57,344 nucleotides of DNA from Candidatus Omnitrophota bacterium (GTDB lineage Bacteria > Omnitrophota > Omnitrophia > Omnitrophales > JACROU01). Under the pieces are notes generated by a model. The model was not told the origin of the DNA and made no database searches. It saw only the letters and a list, made by a program, of their open reading frames with translations. The position numbers and the translations under genes were made by a program. Shown one piece after another: positions 3 through 15,990 of this stretch. How positions within the stretch are numbered: the first letter of the stretch is position 1; each line of letters begins with the position of its first letter. The stretch covers positions 1 through 57,344 of the forward strand of contig JACROU010000102.1 of NCBI GenBank assembly GCA_016214265.1. The letters are read 5' to 3'.

Positions 3-1160
3 ATGCATATTTCCGGATTATCTGTGCAGGTTTCCCGCACTCGTTCGTGGGCTTTTAATCGGCGATTATTTCCTATTGTTCATCAATTGGACCGTATCCG
101 TGACGTTATGGGTTGGTTGTCATACATTTTATCAGGACCTAATCCTTTAACAGATCGTGATTGGTTGGAAATCAGGGGTATTTTTGAAGGTGCTTTTGGA
201 AGGGAGCTTGAAATGTTGCGCGGCGAACTGCTTAGTTTTCCGTTTGCCGTGACCCCGGCGCTTCTCGATTTGACGGGAGTCGAGAAGAATATTGATGTTG
301 ATTTGAAGTCGATGTCAAACCAGGAGAGGCTTGACTGGATAAAAAAGCAGCTCGAAAAAATTTCATTTGTAGATCAGAGGTCATTTCCACCGGGATCCAA
401 ACAGCATGTTTATCTTACTGTCGGTTTGGATCAGAAAAGCCGGTTTGCAAACTGCAAGAAAATGGACGTTCCGTTCCGAGTGACTGGTCCTGTTTTCGGT
501 AATGAATCGCATTATCCTTTTAAGCCAAAAATGGAAAGCTATTACGAGCTGCAAGTGCGTCCTGGTGTGAATGCCGGTGAACTTCTCGAATATATTTTGG
601 AACATGAACAAATTTTACCTTTGTTGCATCATCCCAGGTTCAAAGAAGAAGGCAGCACGATTTTGCAGACGCTCACCATGGCTTCCCATATTTTGAAGTA
701 TGAACCGCCAGGGATTCCCGCCAATTTGGAAGAAAAAATGCCGGAGACTTTACGGGTTCGTCTGATAGGAAAACCATATCTGCAGCAATTCGTTTGGCTG
801 ATTGCCACTCAGGGCTTTTTCCAGGCAAGGAAATTTGCCAAACAAAATGAAAGGTATCTTAACGAAGAGATAGGTCGTCTTCCCAAAAAAGGAATTCAAG
901 CTGTGGGACTTTCGCGTTTTGTGAAAAGTATTTTCATTCATGAGAATCTGTTGAATGAGCTGAGGTGGGTAATTCGCAACACTGGTCACGTCTATGCTAT
1001 GAATCCTCTTGATGTAGGATTTGAAGAAGTTTTGTCTGAAAGTGAAAGAGACTATCCCCTTACTGCTTATGGCAAATACCAATTTCCATACCCAATCGAA
1101 GAATATCAGCTGCTGGTTACTGGCGAAGAATTGACGGCTGTGTCCAAAATCCCGGCTGAA
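3..1160 (+). other. Giant protein segment 1: unrecognised N-terminal part
   Basis: Residues 1-386 of the visible product. It is soluble-looking, mixed alpha/beta, rich in aromatic and charged residues, with no signal peptide or repeat. Residues around 160-190 (FRVTGPVFGNES) look like a beta-rich patch followed by helices. I cannot assign a family. The segment ends in PAE just before the first GASLG. Confidence 0.6.
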
Positions 1161-4100
1161 GGCGCTAGCCTAGGGCAACATCAAATTGTAATTCCAGGCG
1201 CTGCTTGGGTGCCGGTAGAAATGGTAAAAAATTATGCCGGTGCAGAGCAAATTGATCGGGATTTCAAGGCGGGATTTTTTAAATGGGATGAACGCGGACA
1301 GCTTTGGGCGCCGGTCTTGCGCGATCCGACGTATCTGCCGTCTGATTTTATTGATAGGCGTTTTAGTTTTCATAAACGCTCTCTTTATGAACACTTGTCC
1401 GAAGAAGACGTTGCAAAAAGAATTCCTACACGCGCAATCAAAGGTGTTGGAGAAGCATATCATGACGTCCTTTTCTCTTATCTTCCTTATAAACGATTAA
1501 ACACTCAGAAATTTCGCGGGGGTGAGACAAAAGATATCGCCGATTACGCGGCGGGAATTGCCAAGCAAATCCGTAATGAATACGAGAAAGCGCTTCAGGA
1601 AAAAGATCCGGTGGTGATGCTGGCTAAAGAAAAATATGGAATTGATAGTGCGCCGACACTGCGTCCGCTTTATCTTCTTCAGCCAAAGAGAATCCCAGAA
1701 AAAATGTTTCGCCAGCGGGGTTATAAACTTAAGGACACCAAAAAGGAATTGAGGCGTGGCGGTTATATTCCTGAAGAATATGTTCAGAACCAGGTTGTTT
1801 TTGTTTACGAAGTGCCGCTTATGAGCCGCGTGTATGAAACAAGAATTTTGGAAAAGCAGAATATCGAAAAATTTCTTCTGTCTCCCTTGTTGGCATTTTC
1901 GGGTCCATCGGCTACGCCTGAATTTGCACTCAAGCAGTTTGCCGCTCGCCTTGCCGTAGCTCGTCATTTGATGGAACGCCGGCTCCACGGGACTTTTTCT
2001 GTGGATGTTGATTTTTCCAACAATTTCAATTTATCAATTCCTCTCGATCAGAGAAGCATTGTTTCCTCCTTATCGTCCAACAATGTAACTCTAACGGGAC
2101 ATGTCGTCGATTTGGATTCGGCGACTGTGTTTATGAAAAAAAGAAAACTGCCTTTGGGCCGGTTGATGGACGTTTTTTCCCAAAAGTGGACTTTTGCATT
2201 GATGGAAGCATTTCTCGGAGCTTCCGAGTGGCTAGATCCCGAAATCGGCCGCAAAGTTTTCGAAGAAGTTTATCAGGCTGGTGAGGTGAGGCCAGTGATG
2301 ACTGCCACCGGCGCGAGTTTGGGCGCGGATGATTGGAAGAAAGATCATCCTTGGACTGATCCTGATGCTTGGAAGAACGGTGAAAATTTTGATCCGAAAT
2401 TCGAAGCTCAGGATCCCAATGCCTGGAAAGGCGATCCGGAAACAGAAATGCAAACAGGAGCTGGGCCCAAAAACAAGGAGGACAGCCCCGCAGATATTCT
2501 GTTTCTTGAGAATAAATTGAAACAAGAAATGAAAAAACGCGATTGGAATAGCGCGCTCAAAACAATGGGTAAGATTGAAAGGCAAGCCTCGCTTCTTCCG
2601 GAACATTTGATTATTCGGGGAAGTATTTTGCGACTCCATCCCAATTCTTGGCCCGCCGCCGAGCGTGATTTTACCAACGCTGTTTTAATGGCAAAAGATC
2701 TGCCCAAAAATGAAGATACGCAGACATTGCTTCTGACAGCTTTGATTCAGAGAGGATCGCTGTATTTGAGTGAAAACCGGCTGAATTCCGCGATCGGTGA
2801 TTTCAGCAGGGCTTTGGACATTGATCCCGATGTCAGTGCAATTTTGCAACTGAGAGGGATGGCGTATCTGAAAGTTCCCGCTTGTGGCGAAGCCCGTCAA
2901 GATCTGGAAAGAGTAGCCTTTTTGGACGGCAAAGATACCGCACTCGAGGTGTATTTGGGGCTGGCTTATATTTATCACCAGCTCGGCGACCCGGCGTCAG
3001 AAGGCAGAATTCTTCGCCGGGCCTCGCAATACCATCCGCGTAATATCAAAATGGATTATTACAAAGCGCTTATGTTTTATCAAAATGACGCAGAGGATTC
3101 ATTGCGAAAAGCGCTGCTTAAAACCACAAATATTCTTAAGCGAGCTGAGCAGCCTGTCATAAGAAAGGCCGCGCTGTTGTTGAGGGCTGAAATTTATTTG
3201 CGTTTGAAAGAGGAAAATAAGGCAGAGAAATGTTTTGAAGACATCCTGAAACTTGATCCGATGAACTCGGATGTGATGATAACGCAGGCCGGGATTTTAT
3301 ACCGGCTGAATAAAAAGGAACAATCCCGGTCTCATTTGAGAGAGGCGCTTTTTTTGAGGTCGGGAGAAATTAAGAATGATGAATTTCAACTGTTTTTTGG
3401 CGCGCGTTATCGCTCGTTTCAGTATGTCATTAAACAAGGGCTGAATTTTCTTTTCACAGGTCAAGAATCCAGAAACTTAGAGGATATGTTGATGGAGGTG
3501 ATTGTTTCGCATTTAAGCAGCGAACGAGTGCGCGACCTCACCGAAAAAGAAATTTCCAAAATTCGAAAGAATGAAGATCCGGCGAAAAGATTGATTGAAA
3601 TCGATAAAGTTATGCAACGGGCAGGCCGGACAGTGCCGTTGCTTCTTGTCCGGGCAGAAACGTTGATGCAGCAATATTTTCTTGGCACCCAAGAGGATGA
3701 GTTGAGCAACATTCATTTGCTGGAGGCCGTTCGCAAAGATTATCTGGATATTTTAGAGCTGGATTCCGATCAGCCCATCGCCAAGCGGGGACTAAAAGAA
3801 GTGGAACGCTTGATCGAAAACGTTGATCGCGCCTCGATGGAAGAAGATGAGGGTAACTTTCCCGATGATGAAACTGCTGCCGGCGCGAGTTTGGGGGAAG
3901 AGTTCGAAAGTTACGCCGCCGGGTTTTTAAAAATTCGCCAGTCCATGCGGGCGATTAAGGATTTTATTGAGAATGGGGAAATGAAGAAGGTTGTTGAAGA
4001 GGCGTGGGGAGTTTCACTTGAAGATGAAGAGTTGGAAAATCTTACAATCAGTCTTGTTCATATCGTTCAAGTTCCCCTTCAGATAGTCAGGAACCAGCTA

Positions 4101-7100
4101 GATATTTGGTCTAGGGAAAAAGGTGGCGCTGTTTTTCAGAGAAATTTTGATGGTAGACATAAATTATTTAAAGAGTCAAAAGAAGAGCTGGAAAATTTTC
4201 TTTCCTCGGAAGATCAATTTTCCTCAATGCATCAAAAAAATCCCTCAAAAAGATCCGATACGCTCTCGGGTTTTGTCAAAAAAATGTTTAAAAAAAGAGG
4301 TGTGGAGCCGCAGCATATTCCTGCCTACGGTTCTGGGCCGTTTAAAAAAGCAGCCAGGGCAATCCGCGAACATATTCTTTCCCGTATCGCTGATATCGAA
4401 CACACGACAGATATGTTGATCGAGAAATTGAAAGCTAACGGAAATTCTTCCTCCAAAGTTGAGGGCGCGAGTTTGGGTGTGGATTCGCAATTCAGCTCCG
4501 ATGACCCGAACGGCGATTCGGCGAAATCTGATCTTGCAAGAACTTGGGGTTATATTTTGGAAAGGACAAACGGGGGTATGGCAAGAAAACAACCTCGTAT
4601 TATTGAAGAAATTTTGGCGCGATTCTTTAGTTCACTTCGGCAGACGAGTCCAAACGCGCGAGTTTTGGATTTGGGGACGCTGGATGGGAAGGTGCTCAGA
4701 ATTGCTCAGGGAATATTGAATAACAAAGCTGGGTTGCATGGAATAGACATTGCCGTTCAGGATCATACGGAAGCCGGAACGGGAAAATCCGCAATTCATT
4801 TTCATCATGAAGACATGGAAAATCTCGAAGCCAGTCATGATTTCCAGCCTGGATCTTTTGACGCTGTCACCAGCGTTTTCGCGGTTGAATACAGTGATGT
4901 CGCGAAAACATTGCAGGGGGTGTCGCGATTTTTGCGTCCCGGAGCGCGGGCCATTTTTGTGATGCATCACAAAAACTCTTATTACGTTCATCACGCAAGA
5001 GCGAGTAAACAAATAGAAGAATATATTTTTGCTTCGGGCGTTTTAGAGTCTATACGCAGTTTTCTAAATCGTCCTTCAGCAGAAGGCAGGCGGAAAATGG
5101 ATGGCTCGATCAAACCCATTATTTCCGAGATGAATCGGATTGAGGACCAGATTAAACAGGAGAAGGCTGTGCCGCCGGAGGTTTTGTCCTTGTTAACCCG
5201 AGGCCCCGCAATCTATAGAAAACAAATTGTGGATAAGATCATTCGGCATCATGAATTGACGGCAGATTTTAAAGATCTCGCGATGAGGTGGGAAAGCATT
5301 TCGAATTTTAGGGACTGTTTTGCGGACATTTTTCGTTCAATTGAACAACTGGATTTTCCCGCAGCAGTACAAAAATTGTCGTTGCTTGAAAAGGATGCCC
5401 ACTTTGACTACGAGCGGAACAGGTGCTTGCTTGAAAAAGCGGCCGTTTATGGGCCGGGGGATGAAGAAAAATTAAAGTCCTTATTTCATCAGCAAGACTT
5501 TGAGGTAGGTTCGCTCGAAGTCGTCTCCGATGACCTGGGAATTCATGGTTGGAAAGTCGAAATTCGCAAACCCGCATCGGTTCAAGCCGCAAGTTTAGGT
5601 CGCCAGGAGGAGATGACTAAAGTCCGGGAACTCAAGGGCGCGAGTTTGGGGGCAGCAACTCAACTTACTTGGCAAGGCGATAAATTCGCTCAAATGCATT
5701 TTGATCCGGCAGCCTATCAGGCCATGTCTGAAAAAGATCGGGACGCTTTGAAGCGAACTGTTGTGGGCAACGCCTCATCCCTTGAACAAGGCAAGGATTT
5801 CAAACGAAAAATTGGAGAAGATCCTGACGTTTATCGGTCGCTTCTTTTAAATTTTAACCGGCCCGGGGTCAAGCTTCAGGGGATTCAATATCCCGCCGCC
5901 CAGGTTAAAGGCGTTGTATTTAATTCAGGCCGCTTGGCAGAAGATTTCGACTTGCGCGCCGTGCGGAAGAAAGCGGGCTACGAAGCTGCCTCAGGTCCCG
6001 CGATGAAAATGCAATTTGAATCTGACGGTAGAATCGCGTGGATTCCCAAAGTCGTGACTCCGCGCGGTGCGATGCTTGTTGAGGAGGCTCAAAAAGAATT
6101 CCAGATGCATCAATTTTTCTTTTCGGGTGGTATGCCGGTGAATTATCCCATTGCCTATGGGACCTATCCGAAAGAAACGCCGGACCGCGACCGTAAGCTC
6201 GGACTTGTTGTTTTGGGGCAAAGAGCTCCTTATCAGGCCCGGATGGGTGAAGTGATGGATTATGCGATCGGCCAATTTGTTGAACCTGTGCTTAAGGCGC
6301 GCCAACAAGTCAAAGGAGCGGATTTTCAAACAATCGTGTTTCCTAAATTACTGGAAGTTCATCAACGGCTGAATTTTCTTTCTTATCATTTTGGACAATT
6401 GCTGAGGAAAATGCATGATACGAATCTACGAACTGGCTGGCCCGGCGCCATTCACGGAAATTTCCATTTAGGTAATATGAGCGGAGCGCCCACTGAAGGT
6501 GGGGGACTTGAATTTACCATTCATGATTTGGTGGATGCTGTTTCCAAAAAAGGACTTTCCAAGCCTGAAATATTTGCCCGGCAATCGCTCGATGTTCTTT
6601 CATCCGCGGAAAGTCTGTCCGAAGTCCAAACTTTGCTGAATAAATTTTTGGCCAAATGGCTAAAAGAAAATTTAGGGATGGAAGGTATTCCGGAATTGAA
6701 TTTAATGCCTTCGTTTATTGAAGGCTATTTTCACGATTTGGTTCAAGATCCCTCATTTCCATTATTAATGCAAGGGTTCTCACCGCTTGAAGGAAGCGAC
6801 GGAATTTCGCAATCGATTTGGCTTCAGATGACGCGGATAGAAATTGCCGAGCAGAGACCACTTTATCAAAGTGATTCCGTGTTCAATTCATTCATGCGGC
6901 ATGTGGCAGGAATTGATCAAGGAGGCAAGCCAGTTCAATCCCATGGCGCGAGTTTGGGTTCGCAAACGCCCGTTAGCATTTGGATTCATAATATTAAGGG
7001 AAAGAAATCGACTAAGTTGACCCTTGAGCCGAGAAGTGTGCGAGAAATTTTTGAACGTTCAGTAGAAATTGATACTGCCATGAAAAGTTGTGGAAATAAT

Positions 7101-10100
7101 TTCCGTTTCGAAATTACTTGTTCGGATGGAGTCAAGATGAAGAAATCCTCCAGCGACCCGACATGGGGCAATATTATGCTTCAACATGGGGATCAAGTGC
7201 ATTTTTATCCGATTGTGAAAGTGGAACCAAAACCCGTAGAAACTAAAGTCATAGCACTAGTATCAAAAGGTGTTTCCGCCATCCGGGAGCCTGTCACGGA
7301 ACAAAAAGTTTTGGAATCCGCCAAAGAAAAACCCGCCAGAGAAACAAAGCCTGCAGTAGTAAAAATTTCTACTTTATCAGAGCAAGGCGTGAATGAAGAT
7401 GCTTTAAAAAATGGGAAAGCACTTCTTCTTGAAATTGTCTTGAAACCTGAACAGATCAACTGGGAAAAAGAAAAATCAAATTTACCGGATCTTGCAGGAC
7501 TTCCTTTGGGAATTACAGATCAATATGGTGGAATTTATTATCAGCCCGAGTCGGGTAAGCAATTCGTTTGGTATGTCCCTGGAATGAAAGAAAGAGGATG
7601 GGGTGCTATCGCCAGGAAGGGTGAAGTTAAAGACGGTGTTTATGAACTTACAGTTGAATTTACCAGTAGAGGAAAATCGCCCGTTACAAAAACATTTTTG
7701 ATCGGGGTAGAACGAAAAGGTTTGAATTTGAAGGGTGGATCAATTCCTAACAGCGCATGGAGCATCGTTGATAAGGAAAAAGTTGCTTACAAGAGTAAAA
7801 GATCCGGTCTTGATTTACTGAGTGATATTGTCACGAAGCCCCGAGATTTTAATTGGACGAAAGAAGCAGCGACTCTTCCAAATTTGAAAGACCTTCCTTT
7901 GGGAACTACCAATAATGTCAGCAGACTCAATTGGCATCCAGTTCCGTCGTATCAATTTCATTGGAATATCAACGGACTTGGGGGCGGTTGGCAAGCTCGT
8001 GTTAAAGATACGGGAATTCGGGCAGGACTGTACGAACTTGTCGTAGAACTAACGAAAGTAGGTGAGGAGCCCGTCGAGAGAACTTTCCATATCGGCGTTC
8101 ATCGCGTAATTCTTACGGGGAAAAAGAACCAGGCTAGAAAGAAGTTAGAAGTATGGAATATCACCGATGGAGTAGGTCTTGAACTTCTTTCTAAAATAAT
8201 CATGAAGCCGGCAGATATTGATTGGGAAAAGGAAGCGAAAAGTTTACCCGATCTTACGGGCTTTCCGTTAGGCGAGACAGATGCACAGGGTCAGATTAAT
8301 TTTATGCCCTTTGCAAATTTTCAATTTACTTGGAGATTTTCTGGGTTCAAGGAATCAGGATGGAAAGTTCGCGTGAGGGAAGCGGGTGTGCGAAACGGGC
8401 TTTATCAACTAACGGTGGAATTGAGTAAAAAAGGAAGAGAACCTCAGCTTAAAACATATCTTGTAGGACTTGAGAGAAGAAACGCAAAGGGAACTCAATA
8501 TGAAACTGGCAATAAAAGAGAAGTTTGGAATTTGGTCGATCAGGACGTAGTGAAGGTAAGGGAAAGTAAATCTGGTCTCAAAGTATTGTCCGAAATCATT
8601 AAAAAGCCTGCTGACTTTGATTGGGAAAAGGAAGCGGCAAACTTGCCGAAGCTAAACGGGCTTCCTTTAGGTATTACAGATGACGGCGGAAAAATTTATC
8701 TCAGTCCTTTCAAGTATTTTCGATTCGATTGGCCTGTTTTGGGAACAAGGGGCGCTGGTTGGAAAGCCTACGTCAAAGATACAGGGATTCGTAACGGGCT
8801 ATTCATGATGACTGTTGCTTTGGAGAAAGATGGAGAACAGCCGATAGAAAAACAATTTTATATCGGGGTTGTGAGGAAAAAATTAAGAGGGACACTTAAA
8901 GAAGAAGGAGATCGCAAAGAAATTTGGGACATAGTAGACGAGGTTCCATTTCGCGTTATATCCCACTTGATGTCAAAATCTCGGCACGCTAACTGGGAAA
9001 AAGAAGCAAAAGGGGTTCCTTCGCTTAAAGGGTTTACATTGGGGAATGTGAATCAGTTTGGTCAGATCATTTTCCCAGTAGTGAGAAATTGTCTATATCG
9101 ATGGAATATTCTCGGAAGCATTGATTCAGGTTGGGAAGCGACTGTTGTTGATAGCGGTTTTTTAGAAAACGGAAGATTTCAGGTGACTGTGGAATTGACG
9201 AAAGAAGGACGGGATCCGATCCGCAAGAAATTTTTGATTGGCGTGACGCGCAAAAAGCTGAAGGGGTACAAAGTCGTTAAAGGGGAAAAAATCGATGCTT
9301 GGGGCGAAGTATGGAATCTTGTGGATTCCCAGGTAGCCGGCCTGAGGTTATTAGAAGAAATTGTTTCGCTTCCGGCCGATTTTAATTGGTTGAAGGAAGG
9401 TTCCAAGTTGCCAAATCTAAATGGACTGGAACTTGGTAATATTGATTCGGGAGGAAGAGTCTCTGTCTATTCTCAGGAAAATTATCAATATCTCTGGAAT
9501 ATTCTAGGTTTTCACGAAGAAGGATGGAAAGCCTCGATTAAGAAGACTGAGTTGGTCAATGGATTGTTAGAGCTAACAGTTAGTCTGACGAAAGATGAAA
9601 GAAATACGATTGAAAGAAAATTTTATTTAGGTTTTGGAAGACGTTCAGTGACCGGTAGATTGGGAGAAACGGGAAAAAAGATCGAGGTTTGGGAAATTGT
9701 GAATCGTATCGGGCCAAGAATCCTTTCAGAAATAATCACAAGACCCTATGATGGGAATTGGACGAAAGAAGTAAGTCGATTTCCGAGTCTCTCAGGTTTT
9801 CAGTTAGGTGTTACTGATCAAAAGGGTCACATCATATTCACTCCAATCACAAATTATTCTTTTATATGGTCTATCTTGGGCTATAGGGAAAAAGGATGGT
9901 CAGCGATTGTGGTGGAAAGCGGAGTTGTTGATGGAAATTACCAATTTGTTGTAGAACTTCGAAAAGAAGGAAAACAGTCTCTTCGCAGGATTTTTAGGAT
10001 AGGTCCTCAAGTACGAAAGCTTAAGATTCAGTCTAAAATTGAAGGTTCTGAAAAAAACGTCTTGAACATTATCAACGTCAAATCTCTTTTGAGTTTGGCA

Positions 10101-13100
10101 ACCGTTAGTGTAGAAAGCCGAGAAGGAGAGAGGACGGCTTTGTGGGTTAAGAGAACAGAAGGATATGATGTGACGAGTGATTATGAAAATCCTTGGAAAA
10201 GCGCGGCAGCAAAAGAGCTGGTTGAGAAATTAGGAGCCGTAATGGAAACATTGAAAGGCCAGTCAATTGATATCGCAGCTCGTTTGGTTTCCGGTGAGGA
10301 AGAGCAAGACCTTGTTCAAGAAGGGGAGTATTCAGCGGATGAAGTTCAAAAAGTAAAAATCAAACTTCAGGAAGGACTCCGAGAATATGGGAATGAACAA
10401 CAAATCGGATCCGGCGCGAGTTTGGGCCGTCTTACGCGGGAAGAGGAAGAAACCAGAAGATTGCTTTCAATTCTTCTCACAAAGCCGAAAGATTATTCCT
10501 GGAAAGAATTTGAACAAACTCTTCCACAGCTCGCGGGGCGGCCCTTAGGCGCTATTGATGCGCATGGATTGATTTGGTTCAGTCCCAGAATAGGATTTCT
10601 TTTTCCCTGGCCTGTGCTGGGAAGTTCTGAAAAAGGATGGCATGGTGTGATTACATCAAGCGGTGTTGTAAATGGTTATTATCGATTTACGGTGAAATTA
10701 TCCAAGGCCGGAAAATCCATCGAGAGAATATTTCAGGTGGGGCCGTATTCCCGAATTTTGCGCGGACGTAACGGGAAATCGTATTCCTCCCAGGAAATTT
10801 TGGATCTTTTGGATGTCAACAATGATTTGGGGCTTGCCATGATTGCCGATCTTGTTTCTCAGCCGGCCAATGTGGATTGGAAGAAAGTGACACGCCGTTT
10901 GCATGATCTGGAGGGAATGCCTCTGGGCGAGGTGCCAACAACAGGGGTGATCAGTCTTCCCATCGATGCCAATTTCAGATATCGATGGAAAGTGGGCAAC
11001 AGAGAACATTCCTCGAGAAAAGCGCAATTTGAAACATGGTGGATTGAAAATGGTCATGTTCGGTTTAGCATTCTGTTGAGGGAAAATGATCAGGCTTTCA
11101 GAAGGGAATATCAAATAGGGCCTGAGCGAAGATTGTTGAGCAGTGAAGGAGCCACTGTTACCGGGAAGGTACCGGAAATATTTCAGATGAAATTAATTAA
11201 TACTGTCAAGCTTCCATCCTCCCGAGGCGCGAGTTTGGGTAGCAGTCCCCTGGAATTTCTGGGCAAAAATCATGATTTGCGGAAGTTTGCGGAGAAATAT
11301 CTCAGCCGGCGTTATCGGTTATGGGGACTTGACGCAAGTTTGGCCGGGAATATTTTAGACGTTCTGGTAACCCATCAGAACGATCCCGATATGGCCAGGC
11401 AGAAGGTGTATGAAAATGTCATCCGTTTTGAGACTGATAAGCGTTGGAAAGCGGCATACGACCGGTACCAGGAAGCAACGAAATACACGGCGGGATATTT
11501 TCAAATAAAACCTTACCTTAAGAATCTTCCAACGGGTGCGGTTCTGGTCGATGTCGGAGCCGGTAATAATGCTCTTGGAAAAGTCATTGCCCGGAATCAA
11601 GCGGGTCTGACCGTTATCGGAACCGATATCTATGATTATCACGAGGAACACGGATTGCCCAATCTGCGATTTGTTCAGCAACGGCAAGCCGATCGGCTTT
11701 CATTCGAGGATCATTTTGTTGATGTCGTTGTGTTGAATGCCATGTTGCATCATGTTTCTGGCGATCTTCTTGAGCCCCTGTTGAACGAAATCCGCCGTGT
11801 GTTAAAGCCCGGTGGAAGAGTCCTGTTAATCGAAGATACGTATTCAGAAACTGTTTCCCCGGATCCTGCTTCAGACGCGGAGCTTACCAGTGAGTTTCTA
11901 GGATTGGTCCGGAAAACCGGCAGCGAGTTTGCAAAGAATTTTTTCACTTTCAATGATTGGTATGCAAATATTCTCGTACATCAATGGACAGGAATGGCAA
12001 TACCGTATAATTTTCACTCGATGGAGGAATGGCAGGAAATATTCAAAAAGTCCGGTTTCAGTTCCGCTCAAGCCAGGTATCTGGGATTTCCTAAACAAGG
12101 TTTTCACAAACCCAGTTTGGCTATCCAGGTGTTTTCAGCCGTCCCGTTAGCGGTTGCTTCCGCCGGCGCGAGTTTGGGCCGCGTCCGGGGAAAAAATCAA
12201 GATGCCGAAATTCAAGAAACAAAACTTCTTCTTTCAGAACTTGTTACTAAACCTGCTAATTTTGACTGGAAGGCAAATGCCAAAAAAATTCCTCAATTAA
12301 AGGGTCACCGCTTAGGGGTTTCGAATAAGGGCGGAACCATTCCATTTTCTCCTGGTATTAATTATCTCTATTCTTGGTCTATCGTGGGATCGGATGAAGG
12401 AGGATGGGATGCCGTGATAACCGATAGTGGTATCTTTGGCAATGTTTTCCGCTTCTCAGTTTTACTCAAAAAGCCGGGGAAGAAACCCATTCAAAGAGAA
12501 TTCCAAATTGGGCCTGAGACTAGAATCCTAAAATTAGATAGTAGAGTGCGAAAAAGTACGATGGAAGTTTTGCGTATTATTCCTCTGAGTGAAATTGCTC
12601 GCGACGGTCTTTCAGAAATTCTCACTAAACCCGTAGATTTTAATTGGGCTGCGAATGCGAATCGTCTTCCTGATTTAAGCGGGTTGCCGTTAGGTGTAAC
12701 TAACACCCTCGGTCAAATTGGTATCTATCCCGTTAGAAATTATATATTCGGATGGCCAATTCTTGGTTCTGCAAAAGAAGGATGGGAAGCGTTCGTTATA
12801 AAAAGTGAAGTTAATGGGAACTATTATCAATTGACTGTGAGATTGACGAAGTCAGGTGAAGAATCTATTGAGAAAGTTTTTCAGATCGGACATTACACAC
12901 GGACAGTGAGAGGAATTAATGAAAATTCAGGAAAATTGATGGAAGTTTTAGACGTGGATGATCAATTGGGTCTTAGGGCTCTCAGTGAATTGGTGACAAA
13001 ACCTAGGAATTCTAAATGGGATTCGAAAGCTGGTAATTTGCCGGATATCAGGGGGCTGCGACTAGGAATTACAAATAAAAGCGGGCGAGTTTCATTTTCT

Positions 13101-15758
13101 CCTGTGCAGAATTACGGCTATGACTGGGCCGTTTTGGGAACAGAAGATGGGGGATGGCAGGCTGTAATCAAAGATAGCAGTATCAACAATGGATATTATC
13201 AATTTACTGTGGAGCTCACGAAAAAAGGAGAAAAGCCGCTTTATCGAACATTTCAGATTGGGCGATTTACGAGAACTCTGAAAAGAAGTCCTGTCAGAAC
13301 AAAAGATAATACCGTCCACATTTTGGATATGGATGATCGGTTAGGGCTTCGGGCTCTTTCTGAACTCATCATGAAACCAAAAAACTTTGATTGGAAATCA
13401 AATGAGGCTGATTTGCCACAATTAAAAGGATTGCAGTTGGGAGCAACAAATATCGGCGGACGCATTTCTTTTGCTCCTCTTAAAAATTATATTTTCAATT
13501 GGACTGCTCTTGGATTTCATGAATCGGGCTGGAACGCCGTCATTACTGATTATGAATATCATAAGAATTATGTTCAATTTACGGTAGAGCTTACGAAGCA
13601 AAGACGAAATCCTGTTTATAGAACATTTCAAATCAGCTCTGTCACTACGAATATCGTTGGTGTTAATGAAGACAAGGGCAGAGTTAAAGAAGTTTTAGAA
13701 ATTGATGATCGATTGGGACTCCAACAGCTCAGTAAATTAATCATCCAGCCGGAAGATTATAACTGGAAAGCAAATGTAGGCTCATTGCCAGATTTAACTG
13801 GGTTGCAGCTTGGGGAGACTAATGTTCAAGGACATATTTCATTTAGTCCTGCTACCAATCGTTCCTTCTCTTGGCCTGTTTTCGGATCAAGGTCAAATGG
13901 AAAAGGATGGAAGGCTGTTGTTTTGAAAAGCGGTGTCAAAGGGAAATATTTTCAATTTATCGTCGAGCTTACCCAAAACGGTTCTTCCCCCATTCAGAGA
14001 ACTTTTCAGATCGGTCCTTACACAAAATTTTTAAGAAATTCAGTAACGGGAAGAAAGTCAGATCTTCGCGTTTTAAATTTTATTGATCTGAAAACTGTTA
14101 TGAGTTTAGCAACTGAAGGAGTTGTGAAAACAAGAACAAGGGAATGGGATATGAGGACAGAAAAGCAAATACCTGTTGCCGCGACAGAACAGCCGCTTCA
14201 GCAAGTTATAACCCGGGAGATTTTAGAATCTTTGGAAAAAATAATTAGTAGTATGAATGAAAAAGAGGGTGAGATTGCTTCCAGAATTGTCGGTGGTGAA
14301 GAAGATGAAGATTTAGTCTCAGGGGACGAGTTTACTCAGGATGAGGTTCGAAAAGTGCGAGAGAATCTTCAGAAAGAATTAAAAGTTTTTGTCGGAAATG
14401 GAAGATTTTCCGGCTCGAGTTTGGGGCAGTCAGATAGAAGGGGGCCTTTTGAAGAGAAGGTTTCGCACCGGTTAACTGAAATACAGACCGCTTATGACGC
14501 TTTAACCCGTTTAATGCAGGATGGCGCTGATTTTGACCAGGTTTTAGCGAGAAATTTTCCCGGCGCTTCCCCGAACGAGAAAGTGATGCGTTGGGCTGTC
14601 AAAAGAATTTTTTCACATTATGTTTCAACAGCCGCCATGATTTCCGGATTGATCAAGCTCCAAGAAGCTCAGCCGTCCGGTTCTTTTACGAGAATTGTAG
14701 CGTCGCCCTTGCGTCGTCAGCTTGATGTGCTTAAGGGCGTACTTGAAGATTGGACAAGATTCAAGGCTGAAGAAGAGGTTCATAATTATGCTATCGCCAT
14801 CAATTTCGCGCTAGAAGAAGCACCCGGATTGGACCGGGCTCAATTTGAACAATATTTTTGGGATCATTCGAAAAAGATTGCGGCAGAAATTAAAGATGTA
14901 CTCTATCCGAGGGTGCTTTCCATTGAAACAAATATACAAGAATTAGTGGCGAAGGGCGCAAGTTTGGGGGTGGATCGAGCAGATTACTCAGACCGCGCGG
15001 ATGAGGCGATTATTCCGGTCGCGGTTGAAGTGACGAATAAGATTTTTGCGAAAGAGGATGCCGCGCTTCTCGGCGATGTGCTGGATGTGATGCTTGGCAT
15101 TGGCGTCGCGCGGGCGGATGTTTCGCCTCCGCAGATGATTGCTCCCGGAATTACGGTAGATGAGTTATCACGGCGTCTTATTAGCCGTGTGATTCCGAGC
15201 GTGCTTCCGGATTCTCCGGTGGCGGTGGTAGTGACGGAATCGGAGCTCGCGAGCGGAAAAGAAAATGTGAACGCGCTGATCGACAGCTTGCGCGACGGCG
15301 ATTTGGTGGTCGAAATCGATAATCCCGCTACGGCGGATAATCTCCTCGCGCTCCTGCGTTCACGCGCTCGCGGAAAGAAAATTATCGTGAAAAGCTTGGC
15401 AACCACTTCGCCTCTAGCCGCTGAGCTTGAAGCGAAACTCAAAGGTTACGAGTCCCGGTTCTCGCTGGAAGAAATCCAGGATTTGATTTCTGTTCCCTCG
15501 ACGAAAAAAGAAATGATTCATTTTTCAATTAATCAGAAACTTCTTTTCGAGCATCACATTGCTCCGCAAGTGGTGGATTCGCTGTTGAGACGGTTGGCTC
15601 AGGTCAAAGATTTAAGAACCCGCGGACTCATTTTTCAGCAGGCGGGACTTGAGCGTATTGATGACGCGCATTGGTTAGTGGGGGAGAGACTCGTGAAATT
15701 GATCGAAAAACTTCAAACCGAGCTTGCCGGACACAAAATTATGGCGCAAGCAGCGTAA
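3..15758 (+). CDS. Giant modular protein with GASLG seams (5' end outside window)
   Basis: At least 5,251 residues. The frame is open to the left edge, so the ATG at base 3 is only the first visible Met and the true start probably lies upstream. I do not recognise the protein as a whole. Twelve copies of GASLG or a variant (AASLG, GSSLG) begin at residues 387, 770, 1294, 1488, 1862, 1879, 2315, 3471, 3742, 4055, 4804 and 4985. They cut the chain into 13 segments of 17 to 1,156 residues, and each recognisable fold falls inside a single segment: TPR, two methyltransferases, a kinase-like domain, helical modules and a 14-copy repeat. I see no transmembrane helix or signal peptide in the visible part. 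Giant proteins are known from Omnitrophota. The polyprotein reading is my inference. The gene ends with TAA 65 bases before tRNA-Gln. Confidence 0.93.
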   Translation: MHISGLSVQVSRTRSWAFNRRLFPIVHQLDRIRDVMGWLSYILSGPNPLTDRDWLEIRGIFEGAFGRELEMLRGELLSFPFAVTPALLDLTGVEKNIDVDLKSMSNQERLDWIKKQLEKISFVDQRSFPPGSKQHVYLTVGLDQKSRFANCKKMDVPFRVTGPVFGNESHYPFKPKMESYYELQVRPGVNAGELLEYILEHEQILPLLHHPRFKEEGSTILQTLTMASHILKYEPPGIPANLEEKMPETLRVRLIGKPYLQQFVWLIATQGFFQARKFAKQNERYLNEEIGRLPKKGIQAVGLSRFVKSIFIHENLLNELRWVIRNTGHVYAMNPLDVGFEEVLSESERDYPLTAYGKYQFPYPIEEYQLLVTGEELTAVSKIPAEGASLGQHQIVIPGAAWVPVEMVKNYAGAEQIDRDFKAGFFKWDERGQLWAPVLRDPTYLPSDFIDRRFSFHKRSLYEHLSEEDVAKRIPTRAIKGVGEAYHDVLFSYLPYKRLNTQKFRGGETKDIADYAAGIAKQIRNEYEKALQEKDPVVMLAKEKYGIDSAPTLRPLYLLQPKRIPEKMFRQRGYKLKDTKKELRRGGYIPEEYVQNQVVFVYEVPLMSRVYETRILEKQNIEKFLLSPLLAFSGPSATPEFALKQFAARLAVARHLMERRLHGTFSVDVDFSNNFNLSIPLDQRSIVSSLSSNNVTLTGHVVDLDSATVFMKKRKLPLGRLMDVFSQKWTFALMEAFLGASEWLDPEIGRKVFEEVYQAGEVRPVMTATGASLGADDWKKDHPWTDPDAWKNGENFDPKFEAQDPNAWKGDPETEMQTGAGPKNKEDSPADILFLENKLKQEMKKRDWNSALKTMGKIERQASLLPEHLIIRGSILRLHPNSWPAAERDFTNAVLMAKDLPKNEDTQTLLLTALIQRGSLYLSENRLNSAIGDFSRALDIDPDVSAILQLRGMAYLKVPACGEARQDLERVAFLDGKDTALEVYLGLAYIYHQLGDPASEGRILRRASQYHPRNIKMDYYKALMFYQNDAEDSLRKALLKTTNILKRAEQPVIRKAALLLRAEIYLRLKEENKAEKCFEDILKLDPMNSDVMITQAGILYRLNKKEQSRSHLREALFLRSGEIKNDEFQLFFGARYRSFQYVIKQGLNFLFTGQESRNLEDMLMEVIVSHLSSERVRDLTEKEISKIRKNEDPAKRLIEIDKVMQRAGRTVPLLLVRAETLMQQYFLGTQEDELSNIHLLEAVRKDYLDILELDSDQPIAKRGLKEVERLIENVDRASMEEDEGNFPDDETAAGASLGEEFESYAAGFLKIRQSMRAIKDFIENGEMKKVVEEAWGVSLEDEELENLTISLVHIVQVPLQIVRNQLDIWSREKGGAVFQRNFDGRHKLFKESKEELENFLSSEDQFSSMHQKNPSKRSDTLSGFVKKMFKKRGVEPQHIPAYGSGPFKKAARAIREHILSRIADIEHTTDMLIEKLKANGNSSSKVEGASLGVDSQFSSDDPNGDSAKSDLARTWGYILERTNGGMARKQPRIIEEILARFFSSLRQTSPNARVLDLGTLDGKVLRIAQGILNNKAGLHGIDIAVQDHTEAGTGKSAIHFHHEDMENLEASHDFQPGSFDAVTSVFAVEYSDVAKTLQGVSRFLRPGARAIFVMHHKNSYYVHHARASKQIEEYIFASGVLESIRSFLNRPSAEGRRKMDGSIKPIISEMNRIEDQIKQEKAVPPEVLSLLTRGPAIYRKQIVDKIIRHHELTADFKDLAMRWESISNFRDCFADIFRSIEQLDFPAAVQKLSLLEKDAHFDYERNRCLLEKAAVYGPGDEEKLKSLFHQQDFEVGSLEVVSDDLGIHGWKVEIRKPASVQAASLGRQEEMTKVRELKGASLGAATQLTWQGDKFAQMHFDPAAYQAMSEKDRDALKRTVVGNASSLEQGKDFKRKIGEDPDVYRSLLLNFNRPGVKLQGIQYPAAQVKGVVFNSGRLAEDFDLRAVRKKAGYEAASGPAMKMQFESDGRIAWIPKVVTPRGAMLVEEAQKEFQMHQFFFSGGMPVNYPIAYGTYPKETPDRDRKLGLVVLGQRAPYQARMGEVMDYAIGQFVEPVLKARQQVKGADFQTIVFPKLLEVHQRLNFLSYHFGQLLRKMHDTNLRTGWPGAIHGNFHLGNMSGAPTEGGGLEFTIHDLVDAVSKKGLSKPEIFARQSLDVLSSAESLSEVQTLLNKFLAKWLKENLGMEGIPELNLMPSFIEGYFHDLVQDPSFPLLMQGFSPLEGSDGISQSIWLQMTRIEIAEQRPLYQSDSVFNSFMRHVAGIDQGGKPVQSHGASLGSQTPVSIWIHNIKGKKSTKLTLEPRSVREIFERSVEIDTAMKSCGNNFRFEITCSDGVKMKKSSSDPTWGNIMLQHGDQVHFYPIVKVEPKPVETKVIALVSKGVSAIREPVTEQKVLESAKEKPARETKPAVVKISTLSEQGVNEDALKNGKALLLEIVLKPEQINWEKEKSNLPDLAGLPLGITDQYGGIYYQPESGKQFVWYVPGMKERGWGAIARKGEVKDGVYELTVEFTSRGKSPVTKTFLIGVERKGLNLKGGSIPNSAWSIVDKEKVAYKSKRSGLDLLSDIVTKPRDFNWTKEAATLPNLKDLPLGTTNNVSRLNWHPVPSYQFHWNINGLGGGWQARVKDTGIRAGLYELVVELTKVGEEPVERTFHIGVHRVILTGKKNQARKKLEVWNITDGVGLELLSKIIMKPADIDWEKEAKSLPDLTGFPLGETDAQGQINFMPFANFQFTWRFSGFKESGWKVRVREAGVRNGLYQLTVELSKKGREPQLKTYLVGLERRNAKGTQYETGNKREVWNLVDQDVVKVRESKSGLKVLSEIIKKPADFDWEKEAANLPKLNGLPLGITDDGGKIYLSPFKYFRFDWPVLGTRGAGWKAYVKDTGIRNGLFMMTVALEKDGEQPIEKQFYIGVVRKKLRGTLKEEGDRKEIWDIVDEVPFRVISHLMSKSRHANWEKEAKGVPSLKGFTLGNVNQFGQIIFPVVRNCLYRWNILGSIDSGWEATVVDSGFLENGRFQVTVELTKEGRDPIRKKFLIGVTRKKLKGYKVVKGEKIDAWGEVWNLVDSQVAGLRLLEEIVSLPADFNWLKEGSKLPNLNGLELGNIDSGGRVSVYSQENYQYLWNILGFHEEGWKASIKKTELVNGLLELTVSLTKDERNTIERKFYLGFGRRSVTGRLGETGKKIEVWEIVNRIGPRILSEIITRPYDGNWTKEVSRFPSLSGFQLGVTDQKGHIIFTPITNYSFIWSILGYREKGWSAIVVESGVVDGNYQFVVELRKEGKQSLRRIFRIGPQVRKLKIQSKIEGSEKNVLNIINVKSLLSLATVSVESREGERTALWVKRTEGYDVTSDYENPWKSAAAKELVEKLGAVMETLKGQSIDIAARLVSGEEEQDLVQEGEYSADEVQKVKIKLQEGLREYGNEQQIGSGASLGRLTREEEETRRLLSILLTKPKDYSWKEFEQTLPQLAGRPLGAIDAHGLIWFSPRIGFLFPWPVLGSSEKGWHGVITSSGVVNGYYRFTVKLSKAGKSIERIFQVGPYSRILRGRNGKSYSSQEILDLLDVNNDLGLAMIADLVSQPANVDWKKVTRRLHDLEGMPLGEVPTTGVISLPIDANFRYRWKVGNREHSSRKAQFETWWIENGHVRFSILLRENDQAFRREYQIGPERRLLSSEGATVTGKVPEIFQMKLINTVKLPSSRGASLGSSPLEFLGKNHDLRKFAEKYLSRRYRLWGLDASLAGNILDVLVTHQNDPDMARQKVYENVIRFETDKRWKAAYDRYQEATKYTAGYFQIKPYLKNLPTGAVLVDVGAGNNALGKVIARNQAGLTVIGTDIYDYHEEHGLPNLRFVQQRQADRLSFEDHFVDVVVLNAMLHHVSGDLLEPLLNEIRRVLKPGGRVLLIEDTYSETVSPDPASDAELTSEFLGLVRKTGSEFAKNFFTFNDWYANILVHQWTGMAIPYNFHSMEEWQEIFKKSGFSSAQARYLGFPKQGFHKPSLAIQVFSAVPLAVASAGASLGRVRGKNQDAEIQETKLLLSELVTKPANFDWKANAKKIPQLKGHRLGVSNKGGTIPFSPGINYLYSWSIVGSDEGGWDAVITDSGIFGNVFRFSVLLKKPGKKPIQREFQIGPETRILKLDSRVRKSTMEVLRIIPLSEIARDGLSEILTKPVDFNWAANANRLPDLSGLPLGVTNTLGQIGIYPVRNYIFGWPILGSAKEGWEAFVIKSEVNGNYYQLTVRLTKSGEESIEKVFQIGHYTRTVRGINENSGKLMEVLDVDDQLGLRALSELVTKPRNSKWDSKAGNLPDIRGLRLGITNKSGRVSFSPVQNYGYDWAVLGTEDGGWQAVIKDSSINNGYYQFTVELTKKGEKPLYRTFQIGRFTRTLKRSPVRTKDNTVHILDMDDRLGLRALSELIMKPKNFDWKSNEADLPQLKGLQLGATNIGGRISFAPLKNYIFNWTALGFHESGWNAVITDYEYHKNYVQFTVELTKQRRNPVYRTFQISSVTTNIVGVNEDKGRVKEVLEIDDRLGLQQLSKLIIQPEDYNWKANVGSLPDLTGLQLGETNVQGHISFSPATNRSFSWPVFGSRSNGKGWKAVVLKSGVKGKYFQFIVELTQNGSSPIQRTFQIGPYTKFLRNSVTGRKSDLRVLNFIDLKTVMSLATEGVVKTRTREWDMRTEKQIPVAATEQPLQQVITREILESLEKIISSMNEKEGEIASRIVGGEEDEDLVSGDEFTQDEVRKVRENLQKELKVFVGNGRFSGSSLGQSDRRGPFEEKVSHRLTEIQTAYDALTRLMQDGADFDQVLARNFPGASPNEKVMRWAVKRIFSHYVSTAAMISGLIKLQEAQPSGSFTRIVASPLRRQLDVLKGVLEDWTRFKAEEEVHNYAIAINFALEEAPGLDRAQFEQYFWDHSKKIAAEIKDVLYPRVLSIETNIQELVAKGASLGVDRADYSDRADEAIIPVAVEVTNKIFAKEDAALLGDVLDVMLGIGVARADVSPPQMIAPGITVDELSRRLISRVIPSVLPDSPVAVVVTESELASGKENVNALIDSLRDGDLVVEIDNPATADNLLALLRSRARGKKIIVKSLATTSPLAAELEAKLKGYESRFSLEEIQDLISVPSTKKEMIHFSINQKLLFEHHIAPQVVDSLLRRLAQVKDLRTRGLIFQQAGLERIDDAHWLVGERLVKLIEKLQTELAGHKIMAQAA
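1161..2309 (+). other. Giant protein segment 2: unrecognised, possible kinase-like C-lobe
   Basis: Residues 387-769. The only suggestive feature is near the end: HGTFSVDVDFSNNFNL, then about 25 residues later GHVVDLDSATV. The spacing of an HG, an Asn and a DLD resembles the catalytic and metal loops of phosphotransferase-type kinases. No N-lobe is evident, so the assignment is weak. The sequence is soluble and basic in its middle (KKELRRGGY). Confidence 0.45.
2310..3881 (+). other. Giant protein segment 3: TPR domain
   Basis: Residues 770-1293. It opens with a Trp/Asp-rich low-complexity stretch (DDWKKDHPWTDPDAWK), then a series of tetratricopeptide repeats. The clearest are LYLSENRLNSAIGDFSRALDIDP, here split as LYLSENRLNSAIGDF plus SRALDIDP, and YLRLKEENKAEKCF plus EDILKLDP. 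TPRs are protein-binding scaffolds, so this module probably docks a partner. The end is acidic (SMEEDEGNFPDDE). Confidence 0.85.
3882..4463 (+). other. Giant protein segment 4: helical module, related to segment 12
   Basis: Residues 1294-1487, predicted all-alpha. The middle helix carries LTISLVHIVQVPLQIV and the last helix reads AARAIREHILSRIADIEHTT. Segment 12 shows the same layout and a similar last helix (KKIAAEIKDVLYPRVLSIET). I do not recognise the family. Confidence 0.5.
4464..5585 (+). other. Giant protein segment 5: SAM-methyltransferase fold, divergent
   Basis: Residues 1488-1861. Motif I is VLDLGTLDGKVL (from residue 1554), followed by the acidic strand end LHGIDIA and a motif IV-like FDAVTSVFAVEYSDV, then FLRPGARAIFVMHH. 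This order is that of a class I Rossmann methyltransferase. The glycine-rich loop has Thr-Leu where GxG is usual, so SAM binding is not certain. About 200 helical residues follow the fold. The substrate is unknown. Confidence 0.8.
5586..5636 (+). other. Giant protein segment 6: 17-residue remnant between two seams
   Basis: Residues 1862-1878 read AASLGRQEEMTKVRELK and are bounded by the variant seam AASLG and a standard GASLG only 51 bases later. It is too short to fold. It could be a linker, or what remains after a module was lost or before one was gained. Confidence 0.8.
5637..6944 (+). other. Giant protein segment 7: kinase-like (APH-type) domain, likely inactive or altered
   Basis: Residues 1879-2314. 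A possible N-lobe has a beta-3 Lys in IPKVVTPRG, then an alpha-C-like helix (EEAQKEFQMHQFF) and the turn MPVNYPIAYGTYP. The C-lobe has HFGQLLRKMHD, then HGNFHLGN (residues 2151-2158) and FTIHDLVDA. This matches the order of aminoglycoside-phosphotransferase-like kinases, where the loop is usually HGDxHxxN. Here Asn replaces the catalytic Asp. The DLVD may serve the metal-binding loop. I infer a pseudokinase or a kinase with changed chemistry. Confidence 0.65.
6945..10412 (+). other. Giant protein segment 8: beta-grasp-like head, repeats 1-7, cap
   Basis: Residues 2315-3470. The first ~90 residues look like a small beta-rich domain ending in LQHGDQVHFYPIV, reminiscent of ubiquitin/ThiS-like folds (weak). 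A Pro/Lys/Glu linker follows. Seven tandem repeats begin at 7419, 7806, 8175, 8574, 8949, 9339 and 9711 (123-133 residues each). Each has the pattern KPxDxxWxKE, LPxLxGLPLG, GxIxFxP, NYxFxWxxLG, GWxAxV, NGxYQxTVELTK, then IGxxRRxLxG. A cap follows from about 10059, rich in Glu, with AARLVSGEEEQDLV and DEVQKVKIKLQ. Confidence 0.85.
10413..11225 (+). other. Giant protein segment 9: repeats 8 and 9
   Basis: Residues 3471-3741. Repeat 8 starts near 10455 with LLSILLTKPKDYSW and keeps the full pattern including GWHGVI and VGPYSRILRG. Repeat 9 starts at 10827 and is the most divergent copy: GMPLG and YQIGPERRLL remain, but the GW turn is lost. There is no cap domain after this pair. Confidence 0.85.
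11226..12164 (+). other. Giant protein segment 10: SAM-dependent methyltransferase
   Basis: Residues 3742-4054. A helical lead-in of about 100 residues precedes a textbook class I methyltransferase core: VLVDVGAGNNALG (from residue 3847), acidic strand end VIGTDIYDY, motif IV VDVVVLNAMLHHV, and RVLKPGGRVLLIED. The order resembles UbiE/Methyltransf_11 enzymes. The motifs look intact, unlike segment 5, so this one may be active. The segment sits between repeat blocks, as if inserted into a longer array. Confidence 0.88.
12165..14411 (+). other. Giant protein segment 11: repeats 10-14 plus second cap
   Basis: Residues 4055-4803. Repeats start at 12219, 12603, 12966, 13341 and 13713. They are closer to each other than to repeats 1-7, sharing the lead-in LGLRALSELxxKP and the ending FQIGxxTRxLxG. 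The C-terminal ~115 residues (from about 14060) resemble the cap after repeat 7: MSLATEGV versus LSLATVSV, ASRIVGGEEDEDLV versus AARLVSGEEEQDLV, DEVRKVRENLQ versus DEVQKVKIKLQ. The block is AT-rich relative to the gene end. Confidence 0.87.
14412..14954 (+). other. Giant protein segment 12: helical module, related to segment 4
   Basis: Residues 4804-4984, bounded by the variant seam GSSLG. It is all-alpha, probably a helical bundle, with RIFSHYVSTAAMISGLIKL and a last helix KKIAAEIKDVLYPRVLSIET. No catalytic motif is visible. Confidence 0.5.
14955..15758 (+). other. Giant protein segment 13: C-terminal domain, GC-rich
   Basis: Residues 4985-5251, mixed alpha/beta: VAVEVTNKIF, SPVAVVVTESELASG, DGDLVVEIDN, ARGKKIIVKSLAT. 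It may be a Rossmann-like alpha/beta domain followed by a helical tail, but I cannot name a family. Base composition differs sharply from the repeats (40 of 60 bases are G or C in 15061-15120, against 20 of 60 in 13681-13740). Being the terminal module, it could carry a sorting or processing signal. Confidence 0.5.
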
Positions 15759-15896: not shown

Positions 15897-15990
15897 AGTT
15901 TTGAAGTTGAGTGGGGATTTGTCTAGGTTTTGTGCAGGAGGCGCATTCGCATTTGTGCCATCATCTTTCCCCGGAAATATAATCTTCTCA

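Follow-up and report, generated by a model that had tools for sequence, protein, structure and literature searches.

The giant ORF that opens the analyzed stretch of DNA (the window, 57,344 bases long and identical to contig C93) encodes a member of a phylum-wide class of giant modular proteins of Omnitrophota, which is defined in this analysis and to which it belongs by virtue of its C-terminus, shared modules, and motifs. A pentapeptide, GASLG in the window organism, divides these proteins into units. As originally predicted, this motif marks module boundaries, a function that is well supported by its recurrence in many giants, its avoidance of homologous blocks, the reshuffling of modules with the motif kept, and its lineage-specific replacement by other pentapeptides. 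The arrangement is best explained if the protein is cut at the motifs, as we infer below.

The ORF is as follows:
3..15758 (+), giant ORF, 5,251 aa plus stop, 5′ end open at the contig edge

With the window spanning the entire contig and the frame already open at base 1, the true protein is longer than the 5,251 aa read here, its N-terminus lies beyond the contig, and the ATG at base 3 need not be its start codon. Downstream, positions 15901–56554 carry ordinary housekeeping genes, including those for RecQ, a phosphoglucomutase-like protein, an rRNA methyltransferase, ribosomal protein S1, TyrRS, a GldG-like protein, IleRS, a histidine kinase, an HD-GYP-like protein, and a PBP.

The 12 predicted GASLG-type motifs were all confirmed (10 exact GASLG, one AASLG, and one GSSLG):
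1161..1175 (+), GASLG (aa 387)
2310..2324 (+), GASLG (aa 770)
3882..3896 (+), GASLG (aa 1294)
4464..4478 (+), GASLG (aa 1488)
5586..5600 (+), AASLG (aa 1862), forms a close pair with the next motif
5637..5651 (+), GASLG (aa 1879), 17 aa downstream of its partner
6945..6959 (+), GASLG (aa 2315)
10413..10427 (+), GASLG (aa 3471)
11226..11240 (+), GASLG (aa 3742)
12165..12179 (+), GASLG (aa 4055)
14412..14426 (+), GSSLG (aa 4804)
14955..14969 (+), GASLG (aa 4985)

These 12 compare with 0.05 expected from composition (P = 5e-25) and with at most 2 in 1000 shuffles. Every SLG tripeptide of the window protein falls within one of them, and no further [GA][AS]SLG was found in any frame of the 57,344-base window. 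The predicted division into 13 segments holds as a count, but one segment, between the motifs at 1862 and 1879, is merely a 17-aa peptide. Specifically, the modules and domains that we recognized within the ORF are:
1161..2309 (+), module A ("IPGAxWVPVxxxxNYAG"), homologous to modules of L015 (two, same genome) and L119 (genome G002)
2310..3881 (+), TPR module (Pfam), with a homologue in the motif-started module of L011
4665..4958 (+), methyltransferase domain 1 (Pfam)
5637..6944 (+), module called kinase-like in the original prediction, 31% identity over 441 aa to a module of the G001 giant L071
6945..10412 (+), array of ~110-aa repeats with no motif inside, 6 anchors detected
10413..11225 (+), two further ~110-aa repeats
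11547..11825 (+), methyltransferase domain 2 (Pfam)
12165..14411 (+), further array of ~110-aa repeats, 4 anchors detected
15300..15755 (+), C-terminal module ending in -AA, common to the C-termini of six other giants (E = 2e-6 with a profile made without the window protein)

The expectation that each domain lies within one segment was borne out by the Pfam matches for the TPR and the two methyltransferases, but the "kinase-like" segment (aa 1879–2314) has no Pfam match at E ≤ 0.01; in all, seven scanned segments besides those with the TPR and the methyltransferases gave nothing at this threshold. A motif at every module boundary, as had been claimed, proved too strong: at least 6, 2, and 4 of the ~110-aa repeats adjoin one another in three segments with no motif between units. 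The motif thus separates units or arrays, not each domain.

Because Pfam matches are few in the variable modules of the giants, motif placement was tested against homologous blocks. Among 35 proteins, 46 of 250 motifs fell inside such blocks versus 81 expected, and none of 2000 circular permutations gave a count as low; for motifs of the RSE type (see below), the corresponding numbers were 3 and 10.8 (p = 0.004). Hydrophobic residues are underrepresented in the flanks of all three motif types (z = −13, −6, and −6). Modules that start at a motif (module A, the TPR module, and module 1879–2314) recur in several giants and genera. Module A (window aa 387–769) is 41–42% identical, from the motif onward, to the two L015 modules and shares 33% identity with one module of L119. 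Module order also differs between the window protein and L119 with the motifs kept: module A precedes the TPR module in the window, a TPR-like module precedes module A in L119, and the motif stands between the two in both proteins. The L119 module was judged TPR-like by eye (helical); the L011 TPR row was left out of the two-module alignment, which it had caused to misalign. Two observations had been named at the outset as counting against the prediction, namely motifs inside folded domains and homologues with the same domains joined without the motif. In a low-confidence two-module structure model of the window protein (mean pLDDT 57), each of the three motifs covered falls in low-confidence coil. 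Some like domains are indeed joined without the motif, in the repeat arrays of the window and in an AAA array of the sister giant L009. A Pfam HAD match in L014 (1393–1535), apparently split by a motif at 1412, was rejected as a counterexample; HAD motif I begins after the motif, and we read the overlap as a probable overrun of the local alignment rather than a split domain.

The window protein is one of many. The genome, a Candidatus Omnitrophota MAG as judged from the relatives of its isoleucyl-tRNA synthetase, carries more than 12 giant ORFs with GASLG-type motifs. Among them are a giant on C89 (at least 5,950 aa) with arrayed dynein-type AAA domains, one of 2,722 aa on C74, one on C28 (at least 2,695 aa) with HATPase and pyruvate-phosphate-dikinase domains, and one on C41 (at least 3,510 aa) with phosphoesterase, amino-acid-kinase, and methyltransferase domains. 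In the C89 giant (L009 of genome G000), ~3,000 aa (L009:2-9103) of repeated dynein/midasin-type AAA_5 domains contain no GASLG, and motifs begin only past this array. A 24,618-aa open frame (G000:C1:1-73850) was rejected as an artifact of masked N; its readable part opens with the N-terminal module described next.

This N-terminal module, common to at least eleven giants, combines a signal-like hydrophobic helix with a domain in which QDAH, EG, and GGFH motifs are conserved. Of 97 Omnitrophota genomes searched, 73 gave matches, and within the order of the window organism a genome often gave 15 or more. In the AlphaFold model of the module (pLDDT 88), a long helix comes first. The domain shares conserved His (QDAH, GGFH) and Glu motifs with the EreA/ChaN/TIKI-like superfamily, and its best PDB folds are the erythromycin esterase EreC and a Bacillus cereus relative, a weak match (for EreC, best Foldseek E 0.037, prob 0.85, low TM-scores). 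The Pfam family ChaN (PF04187) matched one of nine members at E = 0.026, short of the family cut-off. Given this weak fold match and E-value, we name the module EreA/ChaN/TIKI-like, a likeness rather than an established membership. From the N-terminal helix, judged by eye, and the structure model, we infer that the giants are probably exported; the original description of joined "cytosolic enzymes" is therefore probably wrong, given the signal-peptide-like helix at the start of related giants.

The C-terminal residue is Ala in 77% of 35 stop-terminated ORFs of ≥1,000 aa versus 12% of other ORFs, and the window protein ends in -AQAA. Pairwise BLAST found no relatives of the window C-terminus; a profile of four giants from three genera, with the window excluded, later matched it at aa 5174–5251 (E = 2e-6).

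The pentapeptide itself depends on the lineage. [GA]xSLG occurs in families f1, f4, and f6, and RSE[LMVI]R in f3, f5, f7, f8, and weakly f2. GARLA occurs in f20 (genome G067; 84 versus 9 in the control) and is not comparably enriched elsewhere; no boundary motif was found in the giants of f14 and f10. Two pieces of ~6,600 aa from G007 contain 21 and 20 copies of GxSLG versus 0.25 expected. The DNA pattern for RSE[LMVI]R was counted 282 times in G027 (control, 23) and 218 times in G021 (control, 24), stayed close to the control count or under it in G001, f4, and f6, and showed a modest excess in G000 (17 versus 4). Motif type is thus essentially mutually exclusive between lineages, genome-wide. 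The switch is visible at a single pair of homologous modules (39% identity over 379 aa): the G014 copy is preceded by an SLG-type motif and ends at WQQAASLG, and the G021 copy is preceded by RSELR and ends at WQRSEPR. All three pentapeptides carry Leu or a different aliphatic residue at position 4 and G, R, or A at position 5.

That a pentapeptide is kept at joins, occurs as close pairs, and is replaced wholesale between lineages would be most simply explained by cleavage. We see about an even chance that the pentapeptide is the cleavage site of a processing protease acting on an exported polyprotein, with code and protease having diverged together. Chains of this class comprise a signal-peptide-like helix with the EreA/ChaN/TIKI-like N-terminal domain, then interchangeable modules (enzyme, repeat, or binding), and then a C-terminal module, usually ending in Ala. 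Each chain would be made and exported as one polyprotein, and the protease would recognize and cut the pentapeptide of its lineage during or after export, diverging together with its sites. Since position 4 is Leu or aliphatic in all three motifs, our guess is that the cut would fall after that position. A role for the modules beyond the cell, or inside a host or prey, is speculative. The broader proposal of a phylum-wide strategy, in which a dozen or more exported giants per genome would be cut at a lineage code that had switched together with the protease at dozens to hundreds of sites, is more tentative, its chances falling somewhat below even.

The codons of the motif bear on how it spread. 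In the window, its DNA is almost uniform (GGCGCGAGTTTGGG), with other codons for the same residues elsewhere in the genome (AGT TTG versus TCG CTG); codons thus differ between copies, and it is the residues that are conserved, not one DNA word. Variety is nevertheless reduced: Ser codon entropy at the motif is 1.60 versus 2.56 bits in the background, TCC is used at 0 of 82 motif Ser positions versus ~20% in the background, and the Ser codon class clusters by ORF (12/12 AGY in the window, 4/4 TCN in L010). This reduced variety and clustering show that motifs multiplied by copying, presumably together with modules, after which their amino-acid sequence was maintained. In L083, a near-identical stretch of ~57 aa occurs twice (aa 1398–1460 and 4821–4883) with GASLG on both sides at both places, and is translated from noncoding-looking repeat DNA (GTATATCGTATATCGT...), which suggests that the sequence between close motifs is little constrained.

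Spread by copying, together with the L083 repeat and the hydrophilic flanks, also suits an uncleaved joining scar, that is, an inert flexible linker copied with shuffled modules from lineage founder sequences within one giant chain. We consider this unlikely, although it is the alternative that survives best. Linkers usually vary in sequence and length, and nothing about a pure linker requires that five residues persist while their codons diverge, or that no other sequence be found at the dozens to hundreds of joins in a genome. More doubtful still is a docking motif, bound by a chaperone, secretion, or assembly partner that handles modules singly without cutting them; a short, nearly fixed, lineage-specific sequence with hydrophilic flanks also fits binding, but the close pairs (17–33 aa) and the placement at module edges are more simply explained by cleavage, and binding comes without a known candidate partner. 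A conserved DNA word (an uptake, recombination, or transcription signal) lying in frame by chance would account for the uniform window word and the reduced codon entropy, but this very improbable reading is largely refuted by the 9 of 9 window copies of GGCGCGAGTTTGGG in the ORF's own frame and strand, by the alternation of Ser between AGY and TCN and of Leu between TTR and CTN among motifs outside the window, and by the lack of bias at the fifth motif codon in G000 and the RSE type.

Searches of six genomes for Peptidase_S41 and Peptidase_C80 gave no protease that tracks the motif type. Peptidase_S41 is a tail-specific protease that could read the -AA end; as a universal processor it was rejected, having no match in two of the six genomes (G007 and G021). 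Peptidase_C80 matched none of the six and no control genome either, so that this search had no positive control. The N-terminal module, being present wherever the motifs are, is itself a candidate for the processing protease.

Giant ORFs are already known in Omnitrophota, including a 39,678-aa ORF of Velamenicoccus archaeovorus; in the available text of that report they are common, poorly conserved, thought to be involved in cell-cell interaction, and proposed to act in predation or adhesion (PMC10066038), and giant ORFs of the phylum have also been described elsewhere (PMC12057145). Those giants, from the same phylum and uninterrupted as here, are presented in the available text with few domains, transmembrane helices, and adhesion domains, and boundary pentapeptides, motif types, and shared N- and C-terminal modules go unmentioned there (PMC10066038). 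A literature search on Omnitrophota and polyproteins, incomplete in coverage, gave no report of boundary pentapeptides; the giants are thus known, and for the pentapeptide code we found no earlier report. MARTX toxins, secreted proteins of ~5,000 aa, have a cysteine protease domain (Peptidase_C80) for autoprocessing, and cleavage after Leu releases their modules (PMC2900308, PMC2780291). They provide the closest working analogy, but their module set differs, no RTX repeats were noticed in the giants, Peptidase_C80 gave no match in the search without a positive control, and membership of the window giant in that class is not supported. To our knowledge, boundary pentapeptides and lineage switching are no part of the MARTX definition. 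Viral polyproteins carry fixed short sites between folded units, and these sites diverge with the protease between lineages; in contrast, the ORFs described here are numerous, lie in a cellular genome with no viral genes seen, and have an export-like N-terminus.

A 2024 survey of huge proteins found their fate after synthesis unclear, noted that some could be cleaved, and named ignorance of the proteases and their motifs as the obstacle (PMC11573180). The present analysis supplies three candidate motifs. Predicted sites number in the dozens to hundreds per genome, and relatives that use another motif provide a built-in control. Giant ORFs that otherwise resist annotation can now be divided by rule into testable modules, and the conserved N- and C-terminal parts of the giants are defined. 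Should the sites prove to be cut, bacteria would have an equivalent of viral polyproteins, with code and protease having diverged together.

Two further observations concern individual giants. L083 (aa 1139–1365) and L109 (G007) concern a cytidylate kinase with an intact P-loop that is embedded between motifs, with a free-standing copy elsewhere in the genome; an argument from the embedded G007 copy as an essential enzyme therefore fails. In L056 and L078 (G018), the N-terminal module near "SSPRKRGSSWIPAFAGMT" holds the in-frame translation of what appears to be a common dispersed DNA repeat.
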